DNA of 64,000 nt from Mediterraneibacter catenae (GTDB lineage Bacteria; Bacillota; Clostridia; Lachnospirales; Lachnospiraceae): NCBI RefSeq assembly GCF_008691045.1, contig NZ_VMSO01000014.1:1-64000 (forward strand). Reading direction: 5' to 3'. How positions within the stretch are numbered: position 1 is the stretch's first letter; every line of letters begins with the position of its first letter. Both the position numbers and the translations under genes were made by a program. Of the stretch, positions 6,160-57,290 are shown in pieces. The notes below the pieces were generated by a model, which was not told the origin of the DNA, did not search any database, and worked only from the letters and a program-made list of their open reading frames with translations.

Positions 6160-6660
6160 TTGCAGGAAGAAGTTGAAAACAGGTCGGTCAATCTTGCAAT
6201 CACTACGACAAAACTGACGGCACGGGCAATTTGCAGCGGGATCAGGAAATACCTGCAGCACTGCGGAAAAGTAAAAGCGAGAAAAGCAGCAGATAAAGCG
6301 GCAAAAAAAGCTGCGCCGATCCACGGAAAGCAAACGGTGAAGCAGCTAATCCGGCAGAATCAGGGAGTGAGCAGTGTGGATATCGCAAAATCCGGGATCA
6401 GGGATTTTGAGCGGATTGCCAAACGGTACGGTGTTGATTTTGCCGTGACAAAGGATAAGTCCGTACAGCCGCCCAGATATACCGTTTTCTTTAAGGCAAA
6501 GGATGCAGATGCACTGACATCGGTTCACAAAGCATACAGTGCGAAGATTATGAAGAAACGGAGCAGACCGAGTGTACTTGCGCAGCTTCAGAAGTTCAAA
6601 GCTCTGGCTGTAGGAGTTCCGAGAAAAGTACGGGAAAAGATACAGGAGCGTGGAAGATGA
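6160..6660 (+). CDS. pcfB: PcfB-like protein (DUF3801 family)
   Basis: This 166-residue, strongly basic protein matches the PcfB/DUF3801 pattern: a Lys/Ala-rich N-terminal helix region, then VDIAKSGIRDFERIAKRYGVDFAV and a basic C-terminus. In pCF10-type systems PcfB acts beside the coupling protein PcfC. The start is TTG at 6160, seven bases after the AGGAAGGGGG site. Its stop overlaps the start of the coupling-protein gene (ATGA), so the two are translationally coupled, which fits the known pairing. Confidence 0.8.
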   Translation: MQEEVENRSVNLAITTTKLTARAICSGIRKYLQHCGKVKARKAADKAAKKAAPIHGKQTVKQLIRQNQGVSSVDIAKSGIRDFERIAKRYGVDFAVTKDKSVQPPRYTVFFKAKDADALTSVHKAYSAKIMKKRSRPSVLAQLQKFKALAVGVPRKVREKIQERGR

Positions 6661-8423
6661 TGAATACAAAAGAGATAAAACGCCTTGTGATTCTGAATAT
6701 TCCCTACGTGATTCTCGGACTTCTGGCTACAAATTTCGGGGAAGCATGGAGAATGGCGGCGGGGACAGACATTTCGGAAAAAATCCTTGCACTGTTCGGA
6801 ACAATTCCGGCGGCATTCGGAAATCCTCTTCCGAGTATGCATCCGGTAGACCTGTGCGTGGGACTGATATGCGGAGCCGTACTGCGAACTGCGGTATATC
6901 TTCGCGGTAAGAACGCAAAAAAGTACCGCCATAATGTGGAGTACGGTTCTGCACGGTGGGGAACAGCGAAAGATATCGAGCCGTTTATGGCACCAAAATT
7001 TGAGGATAATGTGATCCTTACGAAGACAGAGCGTCTGATGATGAGCAACCGACCGAAGAATCCGAAGTATGCCAGAAATAAGAATGTACTGATTGTGGGA
7101 GGCTCCGGTTCGGGAAAAACAAGGTTCTGGCTGAAACCGAATCTCCTTCAGATGCACAGTTCCTATGTGGTTACTGATCCGAAAGGAAGTATCGCTGTGG
7201 AATGTGGGAATGCGCTTTTGAAGAATGGGTATCGGATCAAGATTGTGAATACGATCAATTTTAAAAAGTCGATGCATTACAATCCGTTCGCCTATATTCA
7301 TTCGGAAAAAGATATCCTGAAACTGGTGACTACGCTGATCGCCAATACAAAGGGCGAAGGGAAAGCCGGGGATGAATTCTGGACTAAAGCGGAGACACTG
7401 CTGTATTGTGCGCTGATCGGTTATCTGCATTATGAAGCTCCGGAGGAAGAACAGAATTTTGCAACACTGATTGAGTTTATCAATGCGATGGAAGTCCGGG
7501 AAGACGACGAGGATTTCCAGAACCCGGTGGATCTGATGATGGAGGAATTGGAAAAGAAGAATCCGAACCATTTCGCAGTACGGCAATATAAGAAATACCG
7601 CTTAGCCGCGGGCAAAACTGCGAAATCGATTCTGGTGAGCTGCGGGGCAAGGCTTGCGCCCTTTGATATTCAGGAACTGCGGGAGATCACAGCTTATGAT
7701 GAGTTGGAACTGGATACACTGGGAGATCAGAAAACAGCTCTGTTTCTGATTATGTCAGATACAGACAGCACCTTTAATTTCCTGATATCCATGATCTATA
7801 CACAGCTTTTCAATCTGCTGTGTGAAAAAGCAGATGATGTGTACGGCGGCAGGCTTCCGGTCCATGTAAGATGCCTGATCGATGAGTGCGCCAATATCGG
7901 ACAGATCCCGAATCTGGAAAAGCTGGTGGCAACAATTCGTAGCCGCGAGATTTCCGCCTGTCTGGTACTGCAGGCGCAGAGCCAGTTGAAAGCGATTTAT
8001 AAGGATAACGCAGATACGATCATTGGCAATATGGATTCGCGGATTTTCTTGGGAGGATCTGAGCCGACGACGCTGAAAGAATTGAACCAGTCGCTCGGAA
8101 AAGAGACGATCGACACGTATAACACAGGAGAAAGCCGAGGACGGGAGACGTCTCATTCCTTGAATTATCAGAAACTCGGAAAAGATCTTGCTACAATTGA
8201 TGAACTGGCTGTGTTGGATGGAAGCAAATGTATTTTGCAGCTGAGAGGTGTGCGGCCATTCCTTTCGGATAAGTACGACCTGACGCAGCATCCGAACTAT
8301 AAGCTGACGTCTGACTATGATCCGAAGAACGCATTTGATATCGAGAAGTTCCTGAATCACAGGCTGAAACTTAAGGCGGATGATGTATACGATGTAGTGA
8401 ATGTGGATGAAGATGAGGTGTAG
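6657..8423 (+). CDS. virD4: VirD4/TraG-type coupling protein
   Basis: This 588-residue protein is the type IV coupling ATPase that brings the relaxase-DNA complex to the mating channel. Two N-terminal membrane segments (about residues 10-28 and 62-82) anchor it. The Walker A motif GGSGSGKTRFW is near residue 148 and the Walker B motif CLIDECANIG near 405, followed by ATIRSREISACLVLQAQSQ, typical of TraG. The start overlaps the pcfB stop. It is followed by a hairpin with a T-run and then the split maff2 gene. Confidence 0.93.
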   Translation: MMNTKEIKRLVILNIPYVILGLLATNFGEAWRMAAGTDISEKILALFGTIPAAFGNPLPSMHPVDLCVGLICGAVLRTAVYLRGKNAKKYRHNVEYGSARWGTAKDIEPFMAPKFEDNVILTKTERLMMSNRPKNPKYARNKNVLIVGGSGSGKTRFWLKPNLLQMHSSYVVTDPKGSIAVECGNALLKNGYRIKIVNTINFKKSMHYNPFAYIHSEKDILKLVTTLIANTKGEGKAGDEFWTKAETLLYCALIGYLHYEAPEEEQNFATLIEFINAMEVREDDEDFQNPVDLMMEELEKKNPNHFAVRQYKKYRLAAGKTAKSILVSCGARLAPFDIQELREITAYDELELDTLGDQKTALFLIMSDTDSTFNFLISMIYTQLFNLLCEKADDVYGGRLPVHVRCLIDECANIGQIPNLEKLVATIRSREISACLVLQAQSQLKAIYKDNADTIIGNMDSRIFLGGSEPTTLKELNQSLGKETIDTYNTGESRGRETSHSLNYQKLGKDLATIDELAVLDGSKCILQLRGVRPFLSDKYDLTQHPNYKLTSDYDPKNAFDIEKFLNHRLKLKADDVYDVVNVDEDEV

Positions 8424-13849: not shown

Positions 13850-14035
13850 CAAAAATGTATAATGCCTTAAAGGGGAAAATAAAAATTTATCGTGCTATCC
13901 ATCATCGGGCCAACCTGACCCGAACTTTCAAAACTGAATACCAGCCGCCCACCGGCGGCACCACCGAGCAGGAAATCTTGAAACAGGTTCCCTGCTCTTT
14001 TTATGCCCGGACGCCGGGAGAAAGGAGGACACTGC

Positions 14036-15625
14036 TTGCCATGCCCGCACTTTGATGTGAAAATCATCCAGCGCAGCAAGCGCCAGTCAGCCGTTGCGTC
14101 TGCCGCCTACCAGAGCGGGGAACGGCTGTTTTCTGAATACGACCAGAAGCAGAAATACTATTCCCATAAAAGCGAAATCGTCCACACCGAAATCATGCTG
14201 CCGCCCCATGCCCCGCCGGAGTACGCAGACCGGAATACCTTGTGGAACGCCGCCGAAGCCATTGAAAAACAATGGAACTCCCAGCTTGCCCGGAGGTTCG
14301 TGCTTGCCATACCGAGGGAACTTCCCCCGGAACAGTACGCCGACCTTATCCGGGACTACTGCCGGGAGTTTTTCGTTTCCAAGGGCATGATTGCCGACTT
14401 TGCCATCCATGACAAGGGGGACGGAAATCCCCACGCCCACATCCTTCTTACCATGCGGGCGATGGACGAAACCGGGAAATGGCTCTCCAAGAGCCGGAAG
14501 GTCTACGACCTTGACGAGAACGGCGAGCGTATCCGGCTTGCGTCCGGCAGATGGAAAAGCCACAAGGAGGACACCGTGGACTGGAACGACCAGAAGTACG
14601 CCGAGATATGGCGGCAGGGTTGGGCTGACACGGCAAACCGCTATCTGGAAGCCATCGGCAGCCCGGAGCGCCTTGACCTTCGCTCCTATGCCCGACAGGG
14701 GATTGATAAAATCCCCACCGTCCACATGGGGCCAGCGGTCAGCCAGTTGGAGAAGAAAGGCATACAGACCAACATCGGCAACCTGAACCGGGACATCAAA
14801 GCCGCCAATTCCCTCATGCAGTCTATCCGGCAGATGGTACGCAGCTTAAAAGGCTGGCTATCCGGCCTGAAAGAGAAAAAGGCGGCGCTGCTGGAAGCGC
14901 TGGAACAGGCCAAGGAGCCGACCATCCCCGAACTGCTTTCCCAGTATCTGGATAAGCGGAGCGAGGAACGTACCGGCTGGACTTCCAAGGGGAAGCTAAA
15001 AGGAACCGTTGGCGATTTCAACAAGGTCATGGAAGCCCTGGACTTCCTGCGGCAGAAAGAGATTTCCACCGTGGAGAGCCTTGACGCCTATCTGGATGAA
15101 GCCAGCGCACAGGCCGTTTCCATCCGTGAGGAAATCAGGCCGATGGAGAAACGTGTGAAAGAGATTGACCGGCTGCTTTTCCATATCGGGAACTTTGAAG
15201 CAAACAAGCCGGTTCATGCGAAATATGCCGCTATCCGCTGGAAGAAACCCAAGGAGAAATATGCCGCCGACCATAAGGAGGAACTGGACGCCTACAACGC
15301 TGCCCTGCGGTATTTCAAGGTTCACCTTGATGGGACGAAGTACAGCACGAAGAAGCTGGCCGGGGAACAGGCACAGCTTTCAGAGAATATCGCTTCCAAG
15401 ATGGAAGCACTGACTGCCGTACAGGAGGATGTAAAGATTTTGCGGGATGTGCGCCACTGGCTCAATCAGGTTTTGCCATCCGAGCAGTACCGCCAGACCG
15501 CAGAGCCGGGAAAGAAACCGTCCATCCAGCAGGCGGTCAAAGGCCGGGAGCAGCGTATCCGGGAGGAACAGGCAGAGAAACGCCAGACGCCCCGCCGCCA
15601 GCAAAAACAGGATATGGAACTTTAA
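14036..15625 (+). CDS. mobA: MobA/MobL family relaxase of the IME
   Basis: The 529-residue protein nicks oriT and leads the transferred strand. The N-terminus HFDVKIIQRSKRQSAVASAA followed by YQSGERLFSEY is typical of MobA/MobL, and the metal-binding motif NPHAHILLTMR lies near residue 130. The C-terminal part is a long coiled coil. The start is TTG 14036 with AAAGGAGG seven bases upstream; the ATG at 14003 overlaps the binding site and gives a non-family N-terminus. It is transferred through the ICE-encoded channel (inference). Confidence 0.9.
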   Translation: MPCPHFDVKIIQRSKRQSAVASAAYQSGERLFSEYDQKQKYYSHKSEIVHTEIMLPPHAPPEYADRNTLWNAAEAIEKQWNSQLARRFVLAIPRELPPEQYADLIRDYCREFFVSKGMIADFAIHDKGDGNPHAHILLTMRAMDETGKWLSKSRKVYDLDENGERIRLASGRWKSHKEDTVDWNDQKYAEIWRQGWADTANRYLEAIGSPERLDLRSYARQGIDKIPTVHMGPAVSQLEKKGIQTNIGNLNRDIKAANSLMQSIRQMVRSLKGWLSGLKEKKAALLEALEQAKEPTIPELLSQYLDKRSEERTGWTSKGKLKGTVGDFNKVMEALDFLRQKEISTVESLDAYLDEASAQAVSIREEIRPMEKRVKEIDRLLFHIGNFEANKPVHAKYAAIRWKKPKEKYAADHKEELDAYNAALRYFKVHLDGTKYSTKKLAGEQAQLSENIASKMEALTAVQEDVKILRDVRHWLNQVLPSEQYRQTAEPGKKPSIQQAVKGREQRIREEQAEKRQTPRRQQKQDMEL

Positions 15626-15696
15626 CCAATCAGGCGTTTGCCATTTTCCCCGTGAGAATGACAGGCGCTTTTCTTATTTTCAGGAGGATTTGCCTA

Positions 15697-16341
15697 TTGA
15701 ACGTATTTGAAGCCGTGAAGCAGTCTGTTACCACCCGGCAGGCCGCCGAGCATTACGGTATCCGGGTAGGAAGAAACGGGATGTGCCGCTGCCCCTTCCA
15801 TGACGATAAAACCCCCAGCATGAAGGTTGACCGGCGCTTCCACTGTTTCGGCTGTCAGGTAGACGGGGATGTGATTGACTTTGTTTCCCGTCTGGAAAAC
15901 GTCAGCCCCAAGGAAGCCGCCCTCATGCTGGCGCAGGACTTCTCCATCCTCTATGAGGATAAGGAGCCGCCAAGCAGGAGCCGCCGCCCCCAGCCCCGGC
16001 AGGAAAGCCCGGAGCAGCAATTTAAGCGCATGGAGCGCCACTGTTTCCGGGTACTGTCCGATTATCACAATCTGTTGCGCCGCTGGAAGCGGGACTATGC
16101 CCCCAAGACGCCGGAGGAGGAATGGCACCCGCTTTTCGTGGAAGCCTTGCAGAAACAATCCCATGTGGAATATCTGCTGGATGTGCTGCTGTTCTCCGAC
16201 ATAGGGGAACGGGCTGCCCTGATTGCCAGCTACGGAAAGGAAGTGAGGAACCTTGAACGGAGAATGGCAGACCTTGCCGCCAGAACTGCGGCAGGCCGTG
16301 ACGGACACCATAGAAGCCGCACCCCCGCCCCGGAGCGTTGA
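15697..16341 (+). CDS. CHC2 zinc-finger (DnaG-type) protein
   Basis: The 214-residue protein has the primase zinc finger CRCPFHDDKTPSMKV and FHCFGCQVDGDVIDFV (about residues 30-65), as in DnaG, but no TOPRIM catalytic domain, so it is a DNA-binding partner rather than a full primase. TTG 15697 follows AGGAGG at 15682-15687. It overlaps the VirE-like ATPase gene by 89 bases; the two probably work as primase-helicase accessory proteins in IME replication. Confidence 0.87.
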   Translation: MNVFEAVKQSVTTRQAAEHYGIRVGRNGMCRCPFHDDKTPSMKVDRRFHCFGCQVDGDVIDFVSRLENVSPKEAALMLAQDFSILYEDKEPPSRSRRPQPRQESPEQQFKRMERHCFRVLSDYHNLLRRWKRDYAPKTPEEEWHPLFVEALQKQSHVEYLLDVLLFSDIGERAALIASYGKEVRNLERRMADLAARTAAGRDGHHRSRTPAPER

Positions 16342-17653
16342 GGAAGTGAGGGCCATGCTGGAAAGCACCGAGAAAGGCGGCGTGCGGAACAGTATCCACA
16401 ACTGCCTGACCGTGTTCCAGTATGACCCCGTCCTTTCCGGGGCGGTTGCGAAAAATCTCCTGACCGAGCGCATTGACCTTCTAAAGCCCATCGGCAGGAA
16501 ACGCAGAACCGGCAGCAAGGCCATGACCGACACGGATATGAAATATATCCGGCTGTATCTGGAAGATACCTACGGCCTGACAAGCGAGAAAAAGATAGCA
16601 GACGCCGCCGATCTGGCCGCAGACGCCAACAGCTACCATCCCATCCGGGACTACCTGAACGGCCTTGTCTGGGACGGGAAAGAGCGTATCCGCTACTGCC
16701 TGCGGCACTTTCTGGGAGCCGACACGGACAACTTCACTTACCATTCCCTGCGGCTGTTCCTTCTGGGAGCCATCCACCGGGCTTTCTGCCCCGGCTGTAA
16801 GTTTGAGGTCATGCTCTGTCTGGTAGGCGGCCAGGGAGCCGGGAAATCCACCTTCTTCCGGCTGCTGGCTGTAAAAGACGAGTGGTTTTCCGATGATTTG
16901 CGGAAGCTGGACGATGATAACGTGTACCGGAAGTTACAAGGCCACTGGATAATTGAAATGTCGGAGATGATTGCCACCGCCAACGCCAAGAGCATAGAGG
17001 AAATCAAGTCTTTCCTCAGCCGTCAGAAGGAGGTCTATAAAATCCCCTACGAAACCCACCCGGAGGACAGGCTGCGGCAATGCGTGTTTGGCGGGACTTC
17101 CAATGCGCTGGACTTCCTGCCCCTTGACCGTTCCGGGAACCGGCGTTTCCTGCCGGTCATGGTCTACCCCGGACAGGCCGAGGTACACATTTTGGACGAT
17201 GAAGCCGCTTCCAGAGCCTATCTGGAACAGGTATGGGCGGAAGCCATGACAACCTACAAAAGCGGCGATTTTAAGCTGTCTTTTACACCCGAAATGATAC
17301 AGTACCTCAAAGAACACCAGCGGGATTTTATGCCGGAGGACACCAAGGCCGGGATGATACAGGCGTACCTTGACCGCTACACTGGCAGCGCCGTCTGTTC
17401 CAAGCAGCTTTTCAAGGAAGCCCTGAACCACCCCTTTGACGAGCCGAAACAATGGGAAATCCGGGAGGTCAACGACATCATGAACCACTGTATCACGGGA
17501 TGGAAGTATTTCTCCAATCCCCGGATATTTGAAGGATACGGCAGGCAAAAGGGCTGGGAACGGGAAGCCCCGGCAACGGGCGCTGACAACGGGCGTGAAA
17601 AAACGCCGGACGGATTTGTGGAAGTGACCGAGCAGATGGAACTTCCCTTTTGA
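16253..17653 (+). CDS. VirE family (PF05272-like) replication ATPase
   Basis: The 466-residue protein has a central P-loop (LCLVGGQGAGKSTFFRLLAV, near residue 190), a downstream acidic motif (HWIIEMSEM) and the arginine-rich segment FLPLDRSGNRRFLPV typical of virulence-associated E proteins, which act as SF3-like helicases in mobile elements. TTG 16253 follows GGAAGTGAGG. With the CHC2 protein it forms the IME replication module. Tandem GTTGCCG repeats follow its stop. Confidence 0.87.
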   Translation: MNGEWQTLPPELRQAVTDTIEAAPPPRSVEEVRAMLESTEKGGVRNSIHNCLTVFQYDPVLSGAVAKNLLTERIDLLKPIGRKRRTGSKAMTDTDMKYIRLYLEDTYGLTSEKKIADAADLAADANSYHPIRDYLNGLVWDGKERIRYCLRHFLGADTDNFTYHSLRLFLLGAIHRAFCPGCKFEVMLCLVGGQGAGKSTFFRLLAVKDEWFSDDLRKLDDDNVYRKLQGHWIIEMSEMIATANAKSIEEIKSFLSRQKEVYKIPYETHPEDRLRQCVFGGTSNALDFLPLDRSGNRRFLPVMVYPGQAEVHILDDEAASRAYLEQVWAEAMTTYKSGDFKLSFTPEMIQYLKEHQRDFMPEDTKAGMIQAYLDRYTGSAVCSKQLFKEALNHPFDEPKQWEIREVNDIMNHCITGWKYFSNPRIFEGYGRQKGWEREAPATGADNGREKTPDGFVEVTEQMELPF

Positions 17654-17674
17654 AAAATCCGGGGAAACCACAGC

Positions 17675-17720
17675 CGGTTGCCGACCCCGTTGCTATCCCG
17701 TTGCCGAGCCGGTTGCCGGG
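17675..17720. repeat. Iteron-like GTTGC repeats
   Basis: Four units of 11-12 bases, each with CGTTGC or CGGTTGC (GTTGCC at 17677, GTTGCT at 17689, GTTGCC at 17700 and 17712), follow the VirE-like gene. Two more GTTGCCG copies are at 17843 and 17856. Regular spacing near one helical turn suggests a binding array, possibly a replication origin. Confidence 0.45.
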
Positions 17721-17721
17721 A

Positions 17722-17747
17722 AAAAGCCCATAACTGCGGGCTTTTCT
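17722..17747 (+). terminator. Terminator after the replication genes
   Basis: AAAAGCCC at 17722-17729 pairs with GGGCTTTT at 17738-17745, followed by CT-rich sequence. Confidence 0.6.
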
Positions 17748-17906
17748 ACCCTCTGACAACCAAAGCAACAGAAAAATAAAAGAAAAAGTAATAAATAACC
17801 CAACCGCCAGACAGAGATTGTTTTCGAGGTTTTTTGAAGCCCGTTGCCGGACTTCGTTGCCGCCCCTCTCCTGTCTGGCTTATTTCATTTATGGAGGTAA
17901 CTGCCT

Positions 17907-18104
17907 ATGGCAAAAAACAAAACTGAAATCCATGTCACAACGGTATTTGACGGCGAACTGGACGCTACGGACGTTTTCGTGAGCCTGATTGTACAGAAAT
18001 ACAGCCGGAGAAACGATAAAGAATATCTTGCGAAAAAGCAAGATTTAGAGTATAATAAAGACAAGGTTCAGAGTGACCGTGTTCCGTCTGGATTGTGCGG
18101 GTAA
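17907..18104 (+). CDS. tnpW: TnpW-like protein
   Basis: The 65-residue protein begins MAKNKTEIHVTTVFDGELDA and contains DVFVSLIVQKYS, matching transposon-encoded TnpW, which sits directly upstream of TnpX-like recombinases. ATGGAGGTAACTGCC precedes the start. Its role is not established; small size and position suggest a regulator or excision accessory. It ends six bases before the recombinase gene. Confidence 0.85.
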   Translation: MAKNKTEIHVTTVFDGELDATDVFVSLIVQKYSRRNDKEYLAKKQDLEYNKDKVQSDRVPSGLCG

Positions 18105-18110
18105 ACGGTT

Positions 18111-19775
18111 ATGATGAACGGAATGGAATATACAGGCATGGACGCAATACTGGCGGGCAGCTTCCGGGCGGCTATCTATTGCAGGCTTTCCAAGGACGAT
18201 GACCTTGACGGGGAGAGCGCCAGCATTGCAAACCAGCGGGATATGCTGGAAACCTACTGCGAGAAGCAGGGATGGGAGGTTGTTGCAGTTTATCAGGACG
18301 ATGGCTACACGGGGCTGAACATGGAGCGTCCCGACCTGAAACGGATGTTGAAAGCCATCGAGCGCAGGCAGGCCAACCTTGTGATAACGAAAGATTTATC
18401 CAGACTGGGTAGGAATTACTTGCAGACCGGCTTCCTGATTGAAGATTTCTTCCCCCGCCACGGCGTCCGGTATATCGCCATGAATGACGGTATCGACACC
18501 ATGCGGGACAACAACGACATTGCGCCGTTCAAGAACATCCTCAACGAGATGTACAGCAAGGACATTTCCAAGAAGGTTCATTCCTCTTATCTGCTGAAAG
18601 CGCAGAAAGGCCAGTTTACCGGCTGCCTTGCCCCCTTCGGCTACCAGAAAGACCCGGAGGATAAAAACCACCTGCTGATTGACGAGGAAACGGCTCCCAT
18701 TGTCCGGCGTCTGTTTGCGTGGGCGCTGGAAGGACACGGCCCCAACTACATCCGGCGCAGGCTGGAAGAAGAAAAAATCCCCTGCCCGACCTACTGGAAC
18801 CGGGTTCGGGGCTTTCGGAACGTGTCAACCAAGTGGGAAAAGAAAGACCCGGTAAACGGGCGGTATATCTGGGACTTTACCGTGATTAAGGACATCCTGA
18901 TGAACCCCGTCTATACCGGCGCTATCGCTTCCCAGAAGAAGGAATACCGCTTCAAAATCGGCACCATCGGGGAGAAGAAGCCGGAGGAATGGATTGTCGT
19001 GGAGAACCAGCATGAGCCGCTTGTTGACCGCAAGACCTTTGACATCGTGCAGCGCAAGCTGAAATCCCGGCAGCGCCCCCGCCAGACCGGGGAAATCAGC
19101 CTGTTTGCGGGGCTTATCAAATGCGGCGAGTGCGGGAAGTCGCTGACTATCCGCTATACCAATGAGAAGCACCCGAAGCAGATTTATTCCTGTAAGACCT
19201 ACAATGCCTACGGGAAACAGCACTGTTCCCAGCACCGGGTTGAGTACGACACCCTGTACCGGCTTGTACTGAACAAAATCCGGGAGTGCGCCAGAGCCGC
19301 CCTGATGGACGGGGAAGCCGTTGCCGGGAAGCTGTCCGACACCTGCGAAGCCGAGCAGAAAGGCCAGCGGGAAGCGTTGGAACGCTCCCTTGCCAAAGAC
19401 GAGGAACGCATTGACGTTCTGGAAAAGATGGTTCTGCGGCTGTATGAGGACATGGTTGCCGGACGTATCAGCGAAGCGAACTTCAATCTGCTGATGGAAA
19501 AGACGCAGAAGGAACAGGCCGAGTTGAAAGCAAGGGTTGAGGAAGGCCGGAAGAAGCTGGCCGATGAAATCCGGCTTGCGTATGACGCCCGCCAGTGGGT
19601 AGAAGCCATTCAGGAATACGCCGACATCACGGAACTGGACGCAGCCACCCTAAACCGCCTGATTAAAGAAATCGTTGTTCATGAGAGCATAGACAGCGAT
19701 AAGACAAGACACATTTCTATCGAAATTCATTTCAATCTCAAACCCATCCCGGAAGTGGAGCAGGTCACAGCCTGA
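18111..19775 (+). CDS. tnpX: TnpX-like large serine recombinase of the IME
   Basis: The 554-residue protein integrates and excises the IME. The catalytic domain begins FRAAIYCRLSKDDDLDGESA, with the nucleophile Ser in CRLSKDD near residue 25, and VITKDLSRLGRNYLQTGFLI near 94. The recombinase domain covers about 170-300 and the zinc ribbon CGECGKS...C...HCSQH is near 345-375, followed by a coiled coil. The gene ends 94 bases from the right junction, as expected for an integrase near an attachment site. Its target is the maff2 MKQLMA codons. Confidence 0.93.
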   Translation: MMNGMEYTGMDAILAGSFRAAIYCRLSKDDDLDGESASIANQRDMLETYCEKQGWEVVAVYQDDGYTGLNMERPDLKRMLKAIERRQANLVITKDLSRLGRNYLQTGFLIEDFFPRHGVRYIAMNDGIDTMRDNNDIAPFKNILNEMYSKDISKKVHSSYLLKAQKGQFTGCLAPFGYQKDPEDKNHLLIDEETAPIVRRLFAWALEGHGPNYIRRRLEEEKIPCPTYWNRVRGFRNVSTKWEKKDPVNGRYIWDFTVIKDILMNPVYTGAIASQKKEYRFKIGTIGEKKPEEWIVVENQHEPLVDRKTFDIVQRKLKSRQRPRQTGEISLFAGLIKCGECGKSLTIRYTNEKHPKQIYSCKTYNAYGKQHCSQHRVEYDTLYRLVLNKIRECARAALMDGEAVAGKLSDTCEAEQKGQREALERSLAKDEERIDVLEKMVLRLYEDMVAGRISEANFNLLMEKTQKEQAELKARVEEGRKKLADEIRLAYDARQWVEAIQEYADITELDAATLNRLIKEIVVHESIDSDKTRHISIEIHFNLKPIPEVEQVTA

Positions 19776-25390: not shown

Positions 25391-25645
25391 ATGGGAGCGA
25401 AGTTAGAAAAGATCGGTGCAGAGCTTGAAAAAGCCAGAGCAAAACGGGCGGCACTGGATGTAAAGATCAAAAATCTGGAACAGAAGTATCAGGAAGAAGA
25501 GAATACGGAGATCCACGATATGGTTCATGCAGCAAATCTGACGCCGGATCAGTTGGCAGAGCTGCTCCGTATGGCAGCGAAGGCTGCACCGAATCCGCAG
25601 ATGCTCATGGAAACAGTGAAGGAGGATGAACAGAATGAAGATTAA
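25391..25645 (+). CDS. DUF4315 family protein
   Basis: The 84-residue protein is a coiled coil (LEKIGAELEKARAKRAALDV...) followed by LTPDQLAELLRMAAKA, the DUF4315 pattern. It always lies between the NlpC/P60 gene and the DUF4366 gene in CTn-type ICEs. GGAGGGAG precedes the start. The function is unknown; it overlaps the next gene by 11 bases. Confidence 0.88.
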   Translation: MGAKLEKIGAELEKARAKRAALDVKIKNLEQKYQEEENTEIHDMVHAANLTPDQLAELLRMAAKAAPNPQMLMETVKEDEQNED

Positions 25646-26351
25646 AAAAGTGATGCTTAGTCTGATGACGGCAGTAATGATAACAGGGACATTTTCAATG
25701 ACAGCTTTCGCAAATGCAGAAGAGACTGTGGATGAAACAGAGAAGACGGTGAAAGAAGAGCAGACGGAGGACGCAGAAGAATCTGCGGAGACAGGAGATG
25801 TTCTTACACCGGATGGCAATATGACTCTTGTAGATGATGTAGGATCTGAAACAGAAGCCGGGAAACAGTTTATCACGATGGTTACAAAGTCAGGGAACTA
25901 TTTTTATTTGATCATTGATCGGGATGATGCGGGAGAGCAGACGGTGCATTTCCTGAATCAGGTGGATGAAGCAGATCTGATGGCGCTTATGGATGAAGAA
26001 CAGACAGCAGGATTGACGCAGGGTGAAGAGACGGCGAATACGGAAACTGAAACGGAGACTGTGACGCCAGATCAGGAGACAATGGAAGAAACAGAGCCTG
26101 CAGAGGAAGAGTCTGTGGAAGAATCGACAGCAGAGAAGCAGGAAGAAAAGAAATCCGGCAATATGCTTCCGGCGATAATTTTACTCGCTGCGGTGGTAAT
26201 CGGCGGCGGAGTGTTTGCGTTTATGAAGCTGAAAGGGAAAAAGGAGCAGGAAAAGGAAAAGCCTGATCCCGATGATGAGTATCAGGATGAGGACGATGAG
26301 GAATATCTGATTCTGGATGATTTTGCGGATAAGCAAGGCGATGAAGATTAG
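25635..26351 (+). CDS. DUF4366 membrane-anchored secreted protein
   Basis: The 238-residue protein has a signal peptide (MKIKKVMLSLMTAVMITGTF, then AFA), an acidic Glu/Thr-rich external region, a small folded part (KSGNYFYLIIDRDDAGEQTV), a membrane segment near 175-195 and an acidic cytoplasmic tail. This is the DUF4366 arrangement seen in CTn-type ICEs. ATG 25635 is preferred because AAGGAGG at about 25619 is too close to ATG 25626. Probably a surface component of the transfer machine. Confidence 0.87.
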   Translation: MKIKKVMLSLMTAVMITGTFSMTAFANAEETVDETEKTVKEEQTEDAEESAETGDVLTPDGNMTLVDDVGSETEAGKQFITMVTKSGNYFYLIIDRDDAGEQTVHFLNQVDEADLMALMDEEQTAGLTQGEETANTETETETVTPDQETMEETEPAEEESVEESTAEKQEEKKSGNMLPAIILLAAVVIGGGVFAFMKLKGKKEQEKEKPDPDDEYQDEDDEEYLILDDFADKQGDED

Positions 26352-26385
26352 ATGTAACATGGCTACAGCTTTGTAATTTTGTGGA

Positions 26386-26403
26386 GGGCAGCAAAGTCTG
26401 CCC
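26386..26403 (+). terminator. Weak hairpin after DUF4366 gene
   Basis: GGGCAG and CTGCCC pair around CAAAGT. There is no T-run, so its role in ending the transfer operon is uncertain. Confidence 0.3.
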
Positions 26404-26422
26404 TAATACATAGAGACCTATG

Positions 26423-26451
26423 TTGTTTACAGTCAGACGTTCTGATATAAT
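26423..26451 (+). promoter_or_regulatory. Promoter of the HD-GHKL cargo gene
   Basis: TTGTTT at 26423-26428 and TATAAT at 26446-26451 are 17 bases apart, 26 bases before the cargo gene start. This gives the gene its own expression, independent of the transfer operon. Confidence 0.55.
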
Positions 26452-26476
26452 TTGACATATACGGAGGCGTGAGAAT

Positions 26477-29400
26477 ATGGGATTTAGAGATGAAAAGCTG
26501 TGGACAATACTGAAGACAAAAGCAGAGGAGGAAGAAGAACGCTGCGGAGAACGGGAGAATAAGGATAATTACCTGAAAGCGGTTGCAGACATTTGCCAGT
26601 ATGGCGTGGACCGCGCAAAAACGATCCGGGATACATTTCCCTTTTATACTCTCCATGACGAAGTCCATATCTGTAATGTCATGCGCCTGATGGCGGAACT
26701 GCTGGGCGACGGGCTCAGCTTTCTGACCCGGGATGAGGCGGCGCTGCTGGTGATGGCTGCGTGCTGCCATGATATTGGTATGAGCTACACTGAGGGCGAA
26801 AAGAAAGAACTGCTGAATAATAAAGATCCTGTGAGGCGTTATCTGGATAAGAATCCTTCGGAATACATGAAAGCATATGCCGCAGGCAGGGAAGAGCCGG
26901 ATCTGTCGGATGAAATAAAGATGAATTTCTTCCGCAATATCCACCACGAAAGAATCAGAGAACTGCTGCAGAAAAAAGAATGGCCGAGAGCGCTGAGAGG
27001 AAGAATTGACAAAGAGGATCTGATTCGGGTATGTAGAAGTCACGGCGAAGAGGTCAGCGAGCTTACTGCCTTGGATCCGGTCCATTCTCTGGACAGGAGA
27101 TTCTGCGCAATCCTGCTCCGTCTTGCGGATATCCTTGATTTTAATGACAGCAGGGCGCCTCAGGCAATCTATGAATATAATGAATTTGACGAAAGAACCT
27201 CTTACAGCGAACAGTACAGTGAGGAAGAATGGGAAAAACATCTTTCCTCCTCCGGATTTCGTTTTGAAAGCGTGGCGGATCGCTCTTATCCTTACCCGTT
27301 GGACTACACGGCAGAATGCCGTTCAATTCAGATTGAGCAGAAAGTAAAATGCTATCTGGACTGGGTTGACCGGGAGCTAGATGACTGTAGCAAAGTGATC
27401 CGCAGATTTGCAGGAAGATGGAACGATTTTGTACTTCCAGCAAAGGTGGAACGCCATATTCAGTCAGATGGGTATTTATCTGGACAGTACCGTATTACGC
27501 TTGACCAGGACCAGGTGATGGAATTATTCGTCGGTGAGAATCTGTACAGTGATCCTGCAGTATTTGTAAGGGAACTGATCCAGAATGCGATTGATGCCGT
27601 CAGGACGAGAAAGCAGTTGGATCGTTCTTTGCCGTCTGATTGGACGGGACAGATCAACATAAGGACATGGAGCGAGCGAGGATATCATTGGTTCCGTATT
27701 GAGGACAACGGGATTGGGATGACGGAGGAGATTATCAGGAATTATTTTCTGAAAGTAGGACGCTCCTACTATAATTCAGATGAATTCCGGCAGGAAAAAC
27801 ACCGGTGTAAAGCAGATCCAGATTACACTCCTGTGAGCAGGTTCGGGATCGGAATTCTCTCTTGTTTTATGGGAGATAAAAAGACAAATCAAGTGGAAGT
27901 GAGCACCAAGCATTTCAGTGAAAACGGAATTTACTATCCAGCACTGAGGCTGAGTATGCATGGCATCAACGGTTATTATTATATGACAGATCAGGAGAAA
28001 GGACATAGGGCGGAACCTATGCCGGGGGTAACGGAGGAAGAAAAGACGCCCTATCACACTGAACCGGGCACGATTATTGCCGTCCGAACAAATCTCTATC
28101 AGACTGGAAAGTACAGAGGATTTCGGGAGATCATCGATCAGTATGTCCTGTGTCCGGAAGTGCCGATCCATTTTGAAAGTGTGGAAGAAGGCAGTTATGA
28201 CTATCTTACAGAGAAAGAGTTTATGGATAGAATCCATAGACTGAAGAAAGCGGAAGGAACAGACGAGAACGGTGGATTCGAATTTTTACTTTCCGATGAG
28301 GATATGAAGACTTTGTCTGAAAGAGTACCGGGATTGACCTGCAGGAAAAGACCGGGAGTCATTATTCGCTGTGTAGCATTAGATGATTATATGCAGTCCC
28401 CATATTTGACAGGGGCTACTCTGTATGCAGAAGCGATTGGAGAGTTCGAGCCGCTTAAGGTGACGCTAGGTGCGATTCATACAAAAGTAAAGGTTGTACC
28501 AGGAATCATGAATGTCCCTGGTACTCCAGCTACACTTTGTTGCAAAATCTCTTTATGTTTTTCCGAGGAAATAGAGGAACAGATAAAAGCAATTGTAGAA
28601 AGTAATTTTCCTGGAATAACTTTTGAACGGTGGAAAGGAGATCACGAATACGACCTTAGAATAATGAAAGTGACAGATTTAAGTGACAGGCTTACATTAG
28701 CCAGATACAGGCAATTAAAGGAACCTCTGTGTTTCAGGAATGTGGATTTACAATACGTACAGCAAAGACTGGAAGATTCCGTAGCCATTTTACCTGGAAA
28801 TATAATTGAGGGGTTCAATAGAGAAGTATTTATCCTTTCCCATAATGGGATCATTTGTTATAAAAATATAAGGGGCATTTATAAATCGTCTTATCTGGAT
28901 GATCCGGAAATCGGCAGTAGATTTTTAAGTATTATTATGTTGAAAGATAAGTATCGGCCTATGATAAATCTCTCGCGGAATAATATAGAGCAACTGAATC
29001 TTGAGACTGCATGTGCACTTAGGATTTTTGATAAAATAGTATCATATGGTGTACTCGAAGACGACATATATCAGATGATAAATAAAAATTGCAGTTATTT
29101 ACCTATGAAGAACTATCTGCAGATGCTAGCAGATTATCCGGAATGGGAAAGGGTGCTTATATTTAACTCTGAAGCAGGAAAAATAACAGCAGAAGAATTA
29201 GAGCGTGTTATTGATGAAAAAGGAATTTGTGTTTTAAATTTTCTGTGTATACGTTCGCAAAGAAATCTCTATTCAGAATTATGCTTTGCATATTTAAAAA
29301 ACAACTATACTCTGTATTTAAATTGTGAAAAAGCTGAACATTCCGTTTTCTATCTGGAAAGATTTACAGTTGTAAAGAAACAAGTCGGGGATGAAAGTGA

Positions 29401-29719
29401 TGCTGCAGTGTTTCCACCGTCGTTTTGCTTTGAATTTTCAGAGGATGGACCAAACTATGATATGGTAAAAAATTGTATAAAAATTAAGACACATTGTAAT
29501 AAAGAACATCGACTGGTAAAATTCCTGGAGAAAAACAGCAAGATTTTAGAGGATAAGGTTCCCGGACTCTGGCATAAAATGCTGAGCTTTTTAATGAATG
29601 AATACGGAACTACCTTGGTTCGGGATGTCAATCTTATACTGAATGATCTGAGAAAGATTACAGACTTGGAAATCCCCATACCGGATAGTCTGTTTTTGTC
29701 AGAGGCTGATGTGATTTAA
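26477..29719 (+). CDS. HD domain plus Hsp90-like GHKL ATPase fusion
   Basis: This 1080-residue protein is cargo between DUF4366 and topB. Residues 50-225 look like an HD phosphohydrolase: LHDEVH (59-64), CCHDIG (97-101), HHERI (156-160) and LADILDFND (216-224). Residues 340-480 carry the GHKL ATP-binding boxes: RELIQNAIDA (365-374), EDNGIGM (409-415) and RFGIGI (455-460), as in HtpG/Hsp90. The last 500 residues match nothing I know. An HD-plus-Hsp90 layout is known from proposed bacterial conflict systems; a defence role is inferred, not shown. Base composition changes inside the gene, from about 57% GC (line at 27061) to 25% (line at 29281), with the break near 28.5 kb. Confidence 0.85.
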   Translation: MGFRDEKLWTILKTKAEEEEERCGERENKDNYLKAVADICQYGVDRAKTIRDTFPFYTLHDEVHICNVMRLMAELLGDGLSFLTRDEAALLVMAACCHDIGMSYTEGEKKELLNNKDPVRRYLDKNPSEYMKAYAAGREEPDLSDEIKMNFFRNIHHERIRELLQKKEWPRALRGRIDKEDLIRVCRSHGEEVSELTALDPVHSLDRRFCAILLRLADILDFNDSRAPQAIYEYNEFDERTSYSEQYSEEEWEKHLSSSGFRFESVADRSYPYPLDYTAECRSIQIEQKVKCYLDWVDRELDDCSKVIRRFAGRWNDFVLPAKVERHIQSDGYLSGQYRITLDQDQVMELFVGENLYSDPAVFVRELIQNAIDAVRTRKQLDRSLPSDWTGQINIRTWSERGYHWFRIEDNGIGMTEEIIRNYFLKVGRSYYNSDEFRQEKHRCKADPDYTPVSRFGIGILSCFMGDKKTNQVEVSTKHFSENGIYYPALRLSMHGINGYYYMTDQEKGHRAEPMPGVTEEEKTPYHTEPGTIIAVRTNLYQTGKYRGFREIIDQYVLCPEVPIHFESVEEGSYDYLTEKEFMDRIHRLKKAEGTDENGGFEFLLSDEDMKTLSERVPGLTCRKRPGVIIRCVALDDYMQSPYLTGATLYAEAIGEFEPLKVTLGAIHTKVKVVPGIMNVPGTPATLCCKISLCFSEEIEEQIKAIVESNFPGITFERWKGDHEYDLRIMKVTDLSDRLTLARYRQLKEPLCFRNVDLQYVQQRLEDSVAILPGNIIEGFNREVFILSHNGIICYKNIRGIYKSSYLDDPEIGSRFLSIIMLKDKYRPMINLSRNNIEQLNLETACALRIFDKIVSYGVLEDDIYQMINKNCSYLPMKNYLQMLADYPEWERVLIFNSEAGKITAEELERVIDEKGICVLNFLCIRSQRNLYSELCFAYLKNNYTLYLNCEKAEHSVFYLERFTVVKKQVGDESDAAVFPPSFCFEFSEDGPNYDMVKNCIKIKTHCNKEHRLVKFLEKNSKILEDKVPGLWHKMLSFLMNEYGTTLVRDVNLILNDLRKITDLEIPIPDSLFLSEADVI

Positions 29720-29871
29720 GAATGATATGTTTAGTATATTTCTCTAGGATAACTGCAAATTTGAATGATACCAGCGGGTTATAAGCATCGGAGGGAAGAG
29801 CAATCTTTTATATAAAAGTGTAAAAATATTGGGAAAAGGATACAGAGCTAAAAAATAATTGTAATTTACAT

Positions 29872-29916
29872 AATAAACAGTTTTATACCTTGCAGGAGGT
29901 ATAAGGCTGTTTTATT
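29872..29916 (+). terminator. Hairpin upstream of topB
   Basis: AATAAACAG and TTATACC on the left pair with GGTATAA and CTGTTTTATT on the right, ending in a T-rich stretch. It probably ends transcription from the cargo gene before topB. Confidence 0.6.
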
Positions 29917-29947
29917 ATGCTCAAAAATACGAAAGGAGTGACCAACC

Positions 29948-32032
29948 GTGCCTAAACTTGTAATTACCGAGAAGCCCTCAGTGGCACAATCTATTGCAAA
30001 AGTCTTATCCGCAACAAAACGTTGTAACGGCTATCTCGAAGGAAACGGCTATCTCGTCAGTTGGTGCATCGGACATCTGGTAGAGCTTGCTCCACCAGAT
30101 TATTATGACGAACGCTATGGAAAATGGAAAAAGGAAGATCTTCCGATCCTTCCTGCCAACTGGAAGTATACCGTATCCCCCGGCACGAAAAAGCAGTTCA
30201 ACATTTTAAAAGAGCTGATGAACCGAGACGATGTGGACAGTCTGATCTGTGCTACTGACGCCGGACGGGAGGGGGAACTGATCTTCCGGCTTGTGTATCA
30301 TCAGTGCAGATGCAGGAAGCCTTTTGAACGTCTGTGGATTTCTTCGCTGGAAGACAGTGCGATCCGGGAGGGATTCCGGCATCTGAAACCGGGAATTGAA
30401 TATGATGCTTTATATGAAGCAGCTTTATGCCGGGAGCGTTCCGACTGGATTGTGGGAATCAACGCTACCCGGCTTTTTTCTGTCCTGTACGGAAATACAC
30501 TGAACATAGGACGTGTCATGTCCCCGACACTTGCGCTGACTGTTATGCGGGAAGCGGCGATTGCAGCGTTCATCTCCGAACCGTTTTATACGGTGAAGAT
30601 TCAGATGGATGGATTCACAGCGTCCAGTGAGCGGATCAAATCAAAGGAAGAAGCAGAAAAACTGGCGGCTGACTGTAAAGAAGCGTCTGCTGTTGTGACA
30701 AAAGTGGAACGGAAGAATCGTAAGGAAAAGCCTCCGCTGCTCTATGATCTGACGACGCTTCAGAGAGAAGCAAACAAGATCATGGGATACACGGCACAGC
30801 AGACCTTGGATTATACTCAGAGTCTTTATGAGAAAAAGATGGTGACGTATCCCCGGACAGACAGCCGGTATCTGACGGAAGATATGGCTGCCCTGATTCC
30901 GGATCTGGTGCAGAAGACGGTGAAAAAGTTCTTTGTCAGTGACGAAACTGTACCAGTCCGGACAGGGCAGGTTATCAATAATAAGAAAGTAACAGATCAT
31001 CATGCCATTATTCCTACGAAAACGGCTGCTGAAACAGATTTGACTGCACTTCCGGCCGGAGAGCGGGCTGTGCTTGAGCTGATCGCGCGCAGGCTTGTGT
31101 GCGCTGTCGGAATCCCTTGTGAATCTGATGAGACGGCGGTGGAGCTGAGCTGTGCAGATGCAGTATTCAAGGCGAAAGGCAGCATAGTTACCGAGCCGGG
31201 ATGGAAAGCCTTTATTTCCGGTGTAGAGAGCGGAAATGAAGATAAGGAAGAGGATGCTTCGTCTATCCCTGATATTCAGAATGGAATGGAGCTAACGGTG
31301 AGAGAAGCTGTCTGCAAAGAAGGAAAGACTGTACCGCCGAAACACTATACCGAAGCCACGCTCCTGCAGGCGATGGAGAATGCCGGTGCAGAAGAAATGC
31401 CGGAAGATGCGGAAAGAAAAGGACTTGGCACTCCGGCGACCCGCGCGGGGATTATTGAAAAACTGGTGCGGACCGAATTTCTTGAGAGGACGGGGAGCAA
31501 GAAGACAAAGTATCTGATTCCTACTCAGAAAGGCACGGCGTTGGTTACAATTCTCCCGGAGCAGATTCAGTCTGCATCTATGACTGCAGAGTGGGAAGAA
31601 AAGCTGTTAGAGATTGAGCGTGGTGAGTACAGTGGCGACGCATTTATGGGAGAGATCGAGGCTATGATATCCGATCTGGTGAAGAACTATCAGATTGTGC
31701 CAGATGCAGAAATCCTTATGCCAAAACAGAAAAGTCAGAAAATCGGGAAATGCCCTGTGTGTGGGAATGATGTTATTGAGGGAGCGAAAGGCTGGTTCTG
31801 CGCAAACCGATCCTGCCCGTTCGCCTTATGGAAACAGAACCGCTATTTTGAAAGCATCGGCAAAAAACTCACTGCTTCTATGGCGGAAAAACTTCTGGCA
31901 AATGGAAAGGTGCGGATGAAAGGCTGTAAATCTGCAAAGACAGGGAAAACCTTTGACGCGGTATTGATTCTGGAGACAGATGCATATGGAAAAGCACGGT
32001 TTCGTCTGGATTTTGAGGGAGGAAAGAAATGA
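29948..32032 (+). CDS. topB: DNA topoisomerase III
   Basis: The 694-residue type IA topoisomerase opens with the TOPRIM segment KLVITEKPSVAQSIAKVL, has the acidic motif DAGREGELIFRLVY near residue 100 and the catalytic tyrosine in VTYPRTDSRYL near 300. A C-terminal zinc-finger-like part (CPVCGND...CANRSCPF) is present. The GTG start follows GAAAGGAGTG. Topoisomerase III is standard in this ICE group and helps process transferred DNA. Its stop overlaps the next start (ATGA). Confidence 0.94.
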   Translation: MPKLVITEKPSVAQSIAKVLSATKRCNGYLEGNGYLVSWCIGHLVELAPPDYYDERYGKWKKEDLPILPANWKYTVSPGTKKQFNILKELMNRDDVDSLICATDAGREGELIFRLVYHQCRCRKPFERLWISSLEDSAIREGFRHLKPGIEYDALYEAALCRERSDWIVGINATRLFSVLYGNTLNIGRVMSPTLALTVMREAAIAAFISEPFYTVKIQMDGFTASSERIKSKEEAEKLAADCKEASAVVTKVERKNRKEKPPLLYDLTTLQREANKIMGYTAQQTLDYTQSLYEKKMVTYPRTDSRYLTEDMAALIPDLVQKTVKKFFVSDETVPVRTGQVINNKKVTDHHAIIPTKTAAETDLTALPAGERAVLELIARRLVCAVGIPCESDETAVELSCADAVFKAKGSIVTEPGWKAFISGVESGNEDKEEDASSIPDIQNGMELTVREAVCKEGKTVPPKHYTEATLLQAMENAGAEEMPEDAERKGLGTPATRAGIIEKLVRTEFLERTGSKKTKYLIPTQKGTALVTILPEQIQSASMTAEWEEKLLEIERGEYSGDAFMGEIEAMISDLVKNYQIVPDAEILMPKQKSQKIGKCPVCGNDVIEGAKGWFCANRSCPFALWKQNRYFESIGKKLTASMAEKLLANGKVRMKGCKSAKTGKTFDAVLILETDAYGKARFRLDFEGGKK

Positions 32033-57187: not shown

Positions 57188-57214
57188 ATCTGTGAAACCT
57201 GACAGAATCACGCT

Positions 57215-57244
57215 GCCGATGCAGGGCTGCCACTCTGCATCGGC
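57215..57244. repeat. Perfect hairpin upstream of the recombinase trio
   Basis: GCCGATGCAG at 57215-57224 pairs with CTGCATCGGC at 57235-57244, with no T-run after it. It lies in the leader between promoter and gene and could act in control or as a recombinase site. Confidence 0.6.
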
Positions 57245-57290
57245 GTTTGCCGGAATCCATTTGATAATACAAATAAGGGAGAGGATGCAT

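Follow-up and report, generated by a model that had tools for sequence, protein, structure and literature searches.

We analyzed a 64,000-nucleotide stretch of DNA from Mediterraneibacter catenae (hereafter the window), which carries at positions 26477–29719 of the forward strand a single open frame of 1080 codons, from an ATG at 26477 to a stop at 29719. The 1080-residue product fuses an N-terminal HD-CE phosphohydrolase domain with an Hsp90-type ATPase, and its gene sits as cargo in an integrative and conjugative element (ICE). We lean, with modest confidence, toward the view that the protein is an HD effector gated by ATP, whose variable half would serve recognition, and that it probably acts against phages or mobile DNA as a mobile single-gene system. 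The fusion of HD and GHKL parts had been proposed in an earlier note on this DNA, and the open frame and the Pfam matches bear it out. A minus-strand reading of the gene was rejected: its frame 1 is rich in stops, and the longest opposite frames, at 26363–27241 (292 amino acids) and 27776–28237 (153 amino acids), are unsupported.

The HD-CE domain occupies residues 54–302 (positions 26636–27382), as delimited by Pfam and supported by conservation and by a model of residues 1–325. The match to Pfam HD-CE (PF24391) scores 163.5 bits against a cut-off of 27 and covers 1–262 of the 263 profile positions; the protein is a full-domain member of the family, and there are relatives that share the HD plus HATPase layout. 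The HD pair at residues 98–99 and the HHERI stretch from residue 156, both read by the earlier note, are present in the translation. Conservation was judged in an alignment of the window protein with 48 of 79 loci (L060–L138), which stem from the best 80 of the 318 relatives that scanning the GTDB collection gave. Frames that were truncated, split, or incomplete (e.g. L063, L064, L083, L084, L086, L087, L090, L093, L094, L109, L110, L113, L114, and L116–L119) and distant or ATPase-only matches (L124–L134 and L136–L138) are omitted from it. H60, H64, H98, D99, and H189 are invariant in all 49 aligned sequences, and D218 (48/49) and H156 (46/49) are nearly so; these seven are the putative metal and acid residues. 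H...HD...D is the motif of the HD superfamily, and H..HD..H..H..D is the ligand order in two-metal HD enzymes. The domain has the metal ligands of the superfamily motif with H156 and H189 in addition, and H60xxxH64 resembles the two histidines that serve as acid and metal residues in class I phosphodiesterases.

The HD part alone (residues 1–325) is modeled with a predicted local distance difference test score (pLDDT) of 93.7. Foldseek gave no match to this model at E ≤ 0.001. In VIA-align, PPX (8jgx_B; Z 12.2, 188 residues aligned, 3.8 Å) and a class I phosphodiesterase (1taz; Z 11.2, 225 aligned, 5.0 Å) are found, though in helical folds a shared arrangement alone can give such Z values. PPX/GppA HD-like proteins and class I cyclic nucleotide phosphodiesterases are the nearest solved folds (Z 10–12), with moderate scores and 8–16% identity to the HD part, from which the substrate is unreadable; an assignment of substrate from the fold was dropped. 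A literature search, short of bioRxiv and most subscription journals, found no functional account of HD-CE. A further Pfam family, iHD-CE (PF24401), is matched as well by one relative (L022:46–2457, minus strand); going by its name, this family would be a sister of HD-CE.

The GHKL ATP-binding domain follows at residues ~341–545 (positions 27497–28111), where Pfam HATPase_c_3 matches residues 362–466 with 27.8 bits against a cut-off of 25. The complete set of boxes claimed earlier at 365–460 is present, from the N box FVRELIQNAIDA at 363–374 through DNGIGM at 410–415 to the G2 box SRFGIG at 454–459. E366, N370, D410, G412, G414, G457, and G459 are invariant in the 49 sequences, and such retention of HD and ATPase residues is far more than chance would give. 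A sequence search of the PDB leads to the N-terminal domains of HtpG and TRAP1, best at residues 345–489 (E 1.5e-9). With the full AlphaFold2 model (mean pLDDT 87.0, predicted template modeling score 0.78), Foldseek against the PDB ranks TRAP1 and Hsp90 best (E 1.1e-12). VIA-align matches residues 341–858 of the model with the N-terminal domain and the first middle-domain part of Hsp90; the best structure is the closed state of human HSP90B (8eob_B; Z 22.6, 306 aligned, root mean square deviation 4.7 Å), ahead of Topo VI-B (Z 18.1) and Topo II (Z 17.9).

Judging from this structural match, residues ~546–858 (positions 28112–29050) form an Hsp90 middle-domain-like S5 transducer, in which P828 (48/49) and R834 (46/49) are conserved. 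The catalytic loop of Hsp90 reads SRExLQ. R834 (codon at 28976–28978) is likely the catalytic arginine, because it is conserved, lies inside the Hsp90-matched span, and stands in SRNNIEQL (residues 833–840), which resembles that loop; the S5 domain is described as usually supplying the catalytic basic residue in GHL ATPases (PMC2292703). The N-box Glu and Asn, DxGxG, and GxxG of a GHL ATPase of the Hsp90 type are thus all present, together with an S5 transducer and its likely basic residue. By whole-protein family score, the protein is not HtpG or Hsp90 proper, since only the N-terminal part of HtpG is matched in NCBIfam (63.3 against a cut-off of 371 bits and 82.9 against 455). Compared with Hsp90, HtpG, and TRAP1, the GHKL domain and first middle-domain part are alike, including the E, N, D, GxxG, and arginine residues that have catalytic roles in Hsp90, whereas the leading HD domain, an insertion in the S5 domain, and a separate C-terminal part are peculiar to the window protein. 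The 500 residues regarded earlier as unknown are therefore reduced: the model suggests that much of this part is S5 transducer, with a fast-evolving insertion at residues ~601–780 (positions 28277–28816) within it, and the tail of residues 859–1080 (positions 29051–29716), outside the Hsp90 match, remains without an assigned fold.

These conserved and variable parts evolve at two speeds. The nearest relative, Mediterraneibacter glycyrrhizinilyticus L060 (66% identity; also met as a same-genus match, G539, L051), is 81% identical in the HD part (residues 30–310), 88% in the GHKL domain (341–545), and 80% at 546–600, versus 48% at 601–780, 49% at 781–858, and 49% at 859–1080. Nonsynonymous divergence (dN) from L060 is 0.07–0.10 before residue 600 and 0.38–0.41 after it (~4–6-fold higher; 0.38 in the tail), and the proportion of synonymous differences (pS) is 0.49–0.69 before and 0.62–0.70 after. 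Among the 14 closest sequences, mean pairwise identity is 63% in the GHKL domain, 51% in the HD part, and 21–31% in the later parts (21% in the insertion). The ratio of dN to synonymous divergence (dN/dS, NG86) against L060 is 0.10 for the HD and 0.04 for the GHKL part; these ratios and the retention of both sites in the 49 sequences argue for purifying selection on the two domains. Loss of the HD and GHKL residues among relatives, which would have spoken against the earlier idea, is clearly not seen (46–49 of 49 retain them). The HD and ATPase parts thus appear frozen while the second half drifts or diversifies. A recognition region would show this pattern, but the dN/dS of the second half does not demonstrate positive selection.

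The gene is placed in the window as a discrete cassette. The window holds genes for a VirD4-type coupling protein, TrbL, PrgI, a VirB4/TraG-like ATPase, NlpC/P60, DUF4315, CD1107-like, topB, YodL/DUF4316, a MobA/VirD2-type relaxase, and serine recombinases. Judging from these genes, the element is an ICE. As the earlier note described, the fusion gene lies in a cargo position between a CD1107-like gene (PF14283, presumably the same as DUF4366; 25626–26351, forward strand) and the topoisomerase gene topB (29948–32032, forward strand), both identified by Pfam. In the nearest related ICE, L141, whose topB is 64% identical, this slot is empty: its matches to CD1107 and topB lie 173 bp apart, and a small hairpin there resembles, by eye, window positions 26386–26403. 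Hence the window carries extra DNA at about 26413–29925, which comprises a putative promoter, the gene, and a strong terminator-like hairpin (29869–29919; −25.9 kcal/mol, z −7.0; unlisted by a terminator scan). The promoter claimed by the earlier note is plausible as TTGTTT-17 nt-TGaTATAAT with an extended −10 TG (26423–26451), followed by the ribosome binding site GGAGG (26463–26467); both were read from the sequence by eye, and TGnTATAAT and GGAGG also stand upstream of the L060 and L055 copies in other contexts, but a consensus scan does not list the promoter. DNA likeness to the L060 copy begins 39 bp 5' of the ATG, and the L060 locus is without such ICE genes.

The same slot holds other cargo in related ICEs. 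By tblastn, the gene is absent from all 16 other topB loci used (15 in other genomes of the genus and one in its own genome), out of 17 other topB matches (G578:C60 was left out, and L146 and L148 are shorter than 5 kb). In 299 genomes of the family, CD1107 lies upstream at no fewer than 78 of the 82 other topB places, with at least 79 CD1107 places. The gap between the two, measured from Pfam match to topB and not from gene to gene, is ≤600 bp in 38 of the 78 matches listed, 601–1300 bp in 20, 1301–3000 bp in 7, and >3000 bp in 13; none of the 20 gaps above 1.3 kb among them contains this gene. Cargo in such slots, identified by searching selected genes with Pfam and PADLOC and by using them as tblastn queries, includes AbiEi/AbiEii (L162, its near copy L163, and L147 of the genus), ArdC (L175, with 58–60% identical relatives in L172 and L176–L178), a RadC-ArdC fusion with a HEPN gene (L172), AlbA_2 (L160), and a TED/SpaA/sortase-type adhesin of L162, for which 10 of the 20 loci, L162 among them, have a match. 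Since AbiE, ArdC, HEPN, AlbA_2, and adhesin genes occupy it elsewhere, the CD1107–topB slot is a variable cargo site for defense, anti-restriction, and other genes. In another genus of the family, a 475-amino-acid protein (L174:607–2034) fills this slot; neither Pfam nor PADLOC matches it at E 0.001.

The distribution of the gene is patchy. At E 1e-15, it is present in 8 of 58 genomes of the genus (its own included, two with a remnant only) and 10 of 299 of the family (its own included), and HD-CE in any architecture is found in 49 of 246 genomes of the order at E 0.001, 35 of them above the cut-off. Its own genome (3.18 Mb, 63 contigs) has one HD-CE, and the ATPase part matches one other frame there (E 2.4e-10). 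The best 80 of 318 relatives are mostly from Lachnospiraceae and Oscillospiraceae; Paractinoplanes, Phytohabitans, Olsenella, and one cyanobacterium contribute further ones, while those in Chloroflexi, Verrucomicrobia, proteobacteria, and other groups are more distant. A quick tree puts the Olsenella row within Bacillota (SH-aLRT 98) and joins the row of the cyanobacterium to a Paractinoplanes (97), placements that agree with transfer without proving it. Frames of at least 900 residues are found at 51 of the 59 loci of relatives used for neighbor analysis (out of 79); the other 8 are split or short, some ended by a contig edge. Some relatives have two adjacent frames in place of one (L179:8926–11747, L114:9857–13287, L116:8936–12008, and L090:9965–13059), which may reflect either natural fission or frame errors.

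Two other genomes of the genus keep a 384-bp 5' remnant (L055:196–576 and L056:209–592), 94% and 91% identical, respectively, to window DNA 26421–26804, the likeness stopping at one shared point. Both remnants lie just 3' of the 3' end of a 23S rRNA gene and are flanked by direct repeats, of 81 bp in L055 and of 52 and 31 bp in L056; this may be a second insertion site of the module.

No partner gene recurs across the 59 loci, as expected of the single-gene system proposed earlier; neighbor clusters shared by at least three loci are either generic or due to synteny of near relatives. The idea of a conserved partner was rejected, the recurring clusters resembling, partly by eye, response regulators, ABC transporters, histidine kinases, HTH proteins, and serine recombinases. 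The related loci L102, L103, L104, and L120 form one recurring cluster, three of them with a Uma2 gene. L101 lies directly downstream of a PADLOC nuclease effector, and L071 is followed by Type I restriction-like genes, as judged by eye; the one MTase_I match in the neighbor tally was taken, from sequence, to be L071:13174–14703.

Relatives are also found on viral contigs and plasmids. A scan of IMG/VR with the single protein as a query gave no relatives, and one with a 49-row profile gave 29 loci, in records that may be fragments and may include host DNA. Seven of these match widely, with HD-CE above the cut-off in 7/7, a phage-type integrase in 4/7, and Baseplate_J in 2/7; the matches of the remaining ones center on the ATPase part, with that of L187 starting at residue 191. 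By eye, the 1076-amino-acid frame L183:6213–9443 follows tail- and lysin-like genes, and L184:7914–10325 (803 amino acids) and L185:3775–6378 (867 amino acids) lie within regulator/integrase-type regions. The DNA around L185 has no match in GenBank phages, and a 556-amino-acid frame beside the L185 gene, taken by eye for a conflict-system ATPase, was dropped after an empty PDB sequence search. Four of the five plasmid records spanning the HD and ATPase parts were viewed: an Aliarcobacter relative, which the annotation divides into two frames, close to HsdS and a Shedu nuclease; a Hymenobacter relative between recombinases with AbiEii nearby; a fragmented Lysinibacillus copy with SIR2 and HNH genes in its vicinity; and a distant Lachnospira eligens relative near an Abi gene. 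The ICE slot, the prophage-like contigs, and the plasmids demonstrate carriage by mobile elements, which alone is not specific to defense.

These features can be arranged into a working scheme. The N-terminal HD domain would be the weapon, a two-metal phosphohydrolase or phosphodiesterase, and the GHKL and S5 domains would form an ATP-driven dimer clamp that holds it off or on. The second half (the S5 insertion and residues 859–1080) may sense something that an invading phage or mobile element makes or does. Upon recognition, the ATP clamp would close and release the HD enzyme. By destroying its target, which may be a nucleotide, a nucleotide-based signal, or nucleic acid, the enzyme would stop the invader and probably the growth of the cell too. 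An HD domain joined to a complete Hsp90-type ATPase, both strongly constrained, is most naturally read as the earlier note suggested, with the HD enzyme under an ATP-driven switch. We favor a defense role because of the mobility of the gene, the lack of a partner, its company in the slot and on plasmids, the two-speed evolution, and the precedent of VcSduA.

VcSduA (Shedu type I-D) is likewise one protein in which a hydrolase is joined to a GHKL ATPase whose middle domain is clamp-like; this ATPase-nuclease fusion is reported to block phages, ATPase or nuclease variants abolish the defense, and its authors hypothesize that the ATPase controls the effector (PMC12137116). MORC ATPases are described with the specific motif GhXhhpXXRhl (PMC2292703). 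VcSduA-like proteins are annotated as paraMORC3, whereas the best fold match of the window protein is Hsp90, with a variable second half in addition; and VcSduA has a C-terminal DUF4263 PD-(D/E)xK nuclease, in contrast to the N-terminal HD phosphohydrolase here. Neither DUF4263 in Pfam nor an SduA model in PADLOC is matched up to E 1, and the window protein may parallel VcSduA in its working without being a Shedu member. A second comparison is Clover CloA, reportedly an HD-type enzyme. It is a tightly controlled nucleotide-pool hydrolase in phage defense, described as regulated by dTTP and p3diT (PMC12265719), whereas the window protein carries a fused Hsp90-type ATPase. A bolder form of the scheme, in which the Hsp90 clamp is itself the immune sensor, the second half capturing a phage "client" so that the dimer closes and the HD phosphohydrolase turns on, is conceivable but doubtful.

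Several observations weigh against a defense role. Weaker constraint could also give the faster second half, in which dN/dS is 0.20–0.31, not above 1, with dS near saturation. No known antiphage protein is strongly matched in PADLOC 2.0.0 (best RT_UG24, E 3.5e-4, residues 56–235 only). The literature search, within the limits given above, found no report of an Hsp90-HD defense protein or of a defense test on one, and the main text of the DefensePredictor paper (PMC13092281) mentions HATPase once, in a figure legend, and GHKL, HSP90, or HD domain nowhere. In GenBank phages, the window protein matches 10 records and the L183 protein 3, in the ATPase part only, none of them covering the HD part. 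Serine recombinases or VirD4 like those of the window are found in 6 of 59 loci within the flanks examined, and the prophage and plasmid contexts were viewed without a control.

Defense genes are also not clearly enriched beside the relatives by PADLOC, in a comparison of the 100 nearest neighbors (at most one per side, 120–1400 amino acids, within 3 kb; families among the top 25 of 136) with 99 distinct distant genes (of 129, one entered twice), a UvrD-type helicase excluded. Few true defense genes occur among the neighbors, and the control also has some (SduA models 2, AbiLi 1); both sets are unrelated proteins, aligned solely for joint scanning. The GajB/RTasHel matches were not counted as defense, as all come from that one helicase (L116, 48 models), probably housekeeping PcrA. 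Finally, several chromosomal relatives adjoin ordinary metabolic genes (top 25 of 97 families). A mainly housekeeping context would have contradicted the earlier idea, and the outcome is mixed: metabolic neighbors exist, yet neighbors vary by locus, presence is patchy, and some relatives lie in prophage-like contigs and plasmids, for which reasons we regard the gene as accessory.

The metabolic neighbors count in favor of a regulatory phosphodiesterase, in which the Hsp90-type ATPase controls turnover of a second messenger or nucleotide by the HD domain under stress, the gene being a mobile fitness gene. HD-CE also stands in one frame with MatE and HATPase_c_2 (L035:1423–3684, minus strand), a layout that looks more like signaling and means that HD-CE pairs with two GHKL kinds, and it stands alone in L032 and L036 (in L036, the upstream frame slightly overlaps the HD-CE gene). 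The resemblance of the HD model to class I cyclic nucleotide phosphodiesterases and PPX points the same way, but it is moderate, and Foldseek gives no hit at E ≤ 0.001. Patchy presence, unconserved neighbors, the position as slot cargo, prophage-like contexts, and the fast second half make this explanation unlikely.

We consider it a little less probable again that the gene serves its carrier element, either by excluding rival elements or by counter-defense that shields the incoming element. The cassette does sit amid conjugation genes, relatives lie in prophage-like contigs, and related slots hold anti-restriction ArdC (L175 and L172 by Pfam, L176–L178 by identity). However, few relatives are in such ICEs (comparable mobile genes in the 6 of 59 loci noted above), and most ICE copies lack the gene, as seen in the 16 genus loci and the 20 wider family slots; in 58 of the 78 slots among the matches listed, the CD1107 and topB matches are no more than 1.3 kb apart. 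A specialized Hsp90-type chaperone with the HD domain as a non-catalytic scaffold would account for the strong likeness to the Hsp90 N-terminal and middle domains with E366, N370, and R834, but is improbable given the conservation of the HD ligands, the HtpG scores far below the cut-offs, and a C-terminal part outside the Hsp90 match. A selfish or decaying passenger gene of no lasting function, as the shared remnants and the 8 split or short loci might suggest, is highly improbable in view of the purifying selection (dN/dS 0.04–0.31) and the long frames at 51 of 59 loci.

Other features of the window and genome are as follows. MobA/MobL relaxase, VapE-like, and serine recombinase genes at 14003–19775, between the VirD4-type gene (6657–8423) and TrbL (19965), are as of a nested mobilizable element, judging from gene content. 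A 605-amino-acid reverse transcriptase (RVT_1) at 26–1843 probably belongs to a group II intron. Three serine-recombinase-like frames stand in a row at 57192–62234, the first identified by Pfam and the rest by shared recombinase loci; near the HD-Hsp90 gene of L107, three such frames likewise follow one another. A second topB-type region of the genome (L156; G000:C1:210035–223540) has AbiEii upstream (PADLOC E 3.4e-108).

GHKL ATPase-effector fusions are only starting to be tested in phage defense, as with VcSduA, and an Hsp90-type clamp joined to an HD hydrolase would be a distinct layout among them. Many of the relatives from gut Clostridia have this layout, which occurs in other phyla as well. 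Being a single gene whose catalytic residues are clear, the fusion lends itself to simple tests. Should the variable half indeed be a sensor, a chaperone-type ATPase cycle would be convertible to an infection switch. The CD1107–topB slot of gut ICEs is, moreover, a place to seek more defense and anti-defense genes.

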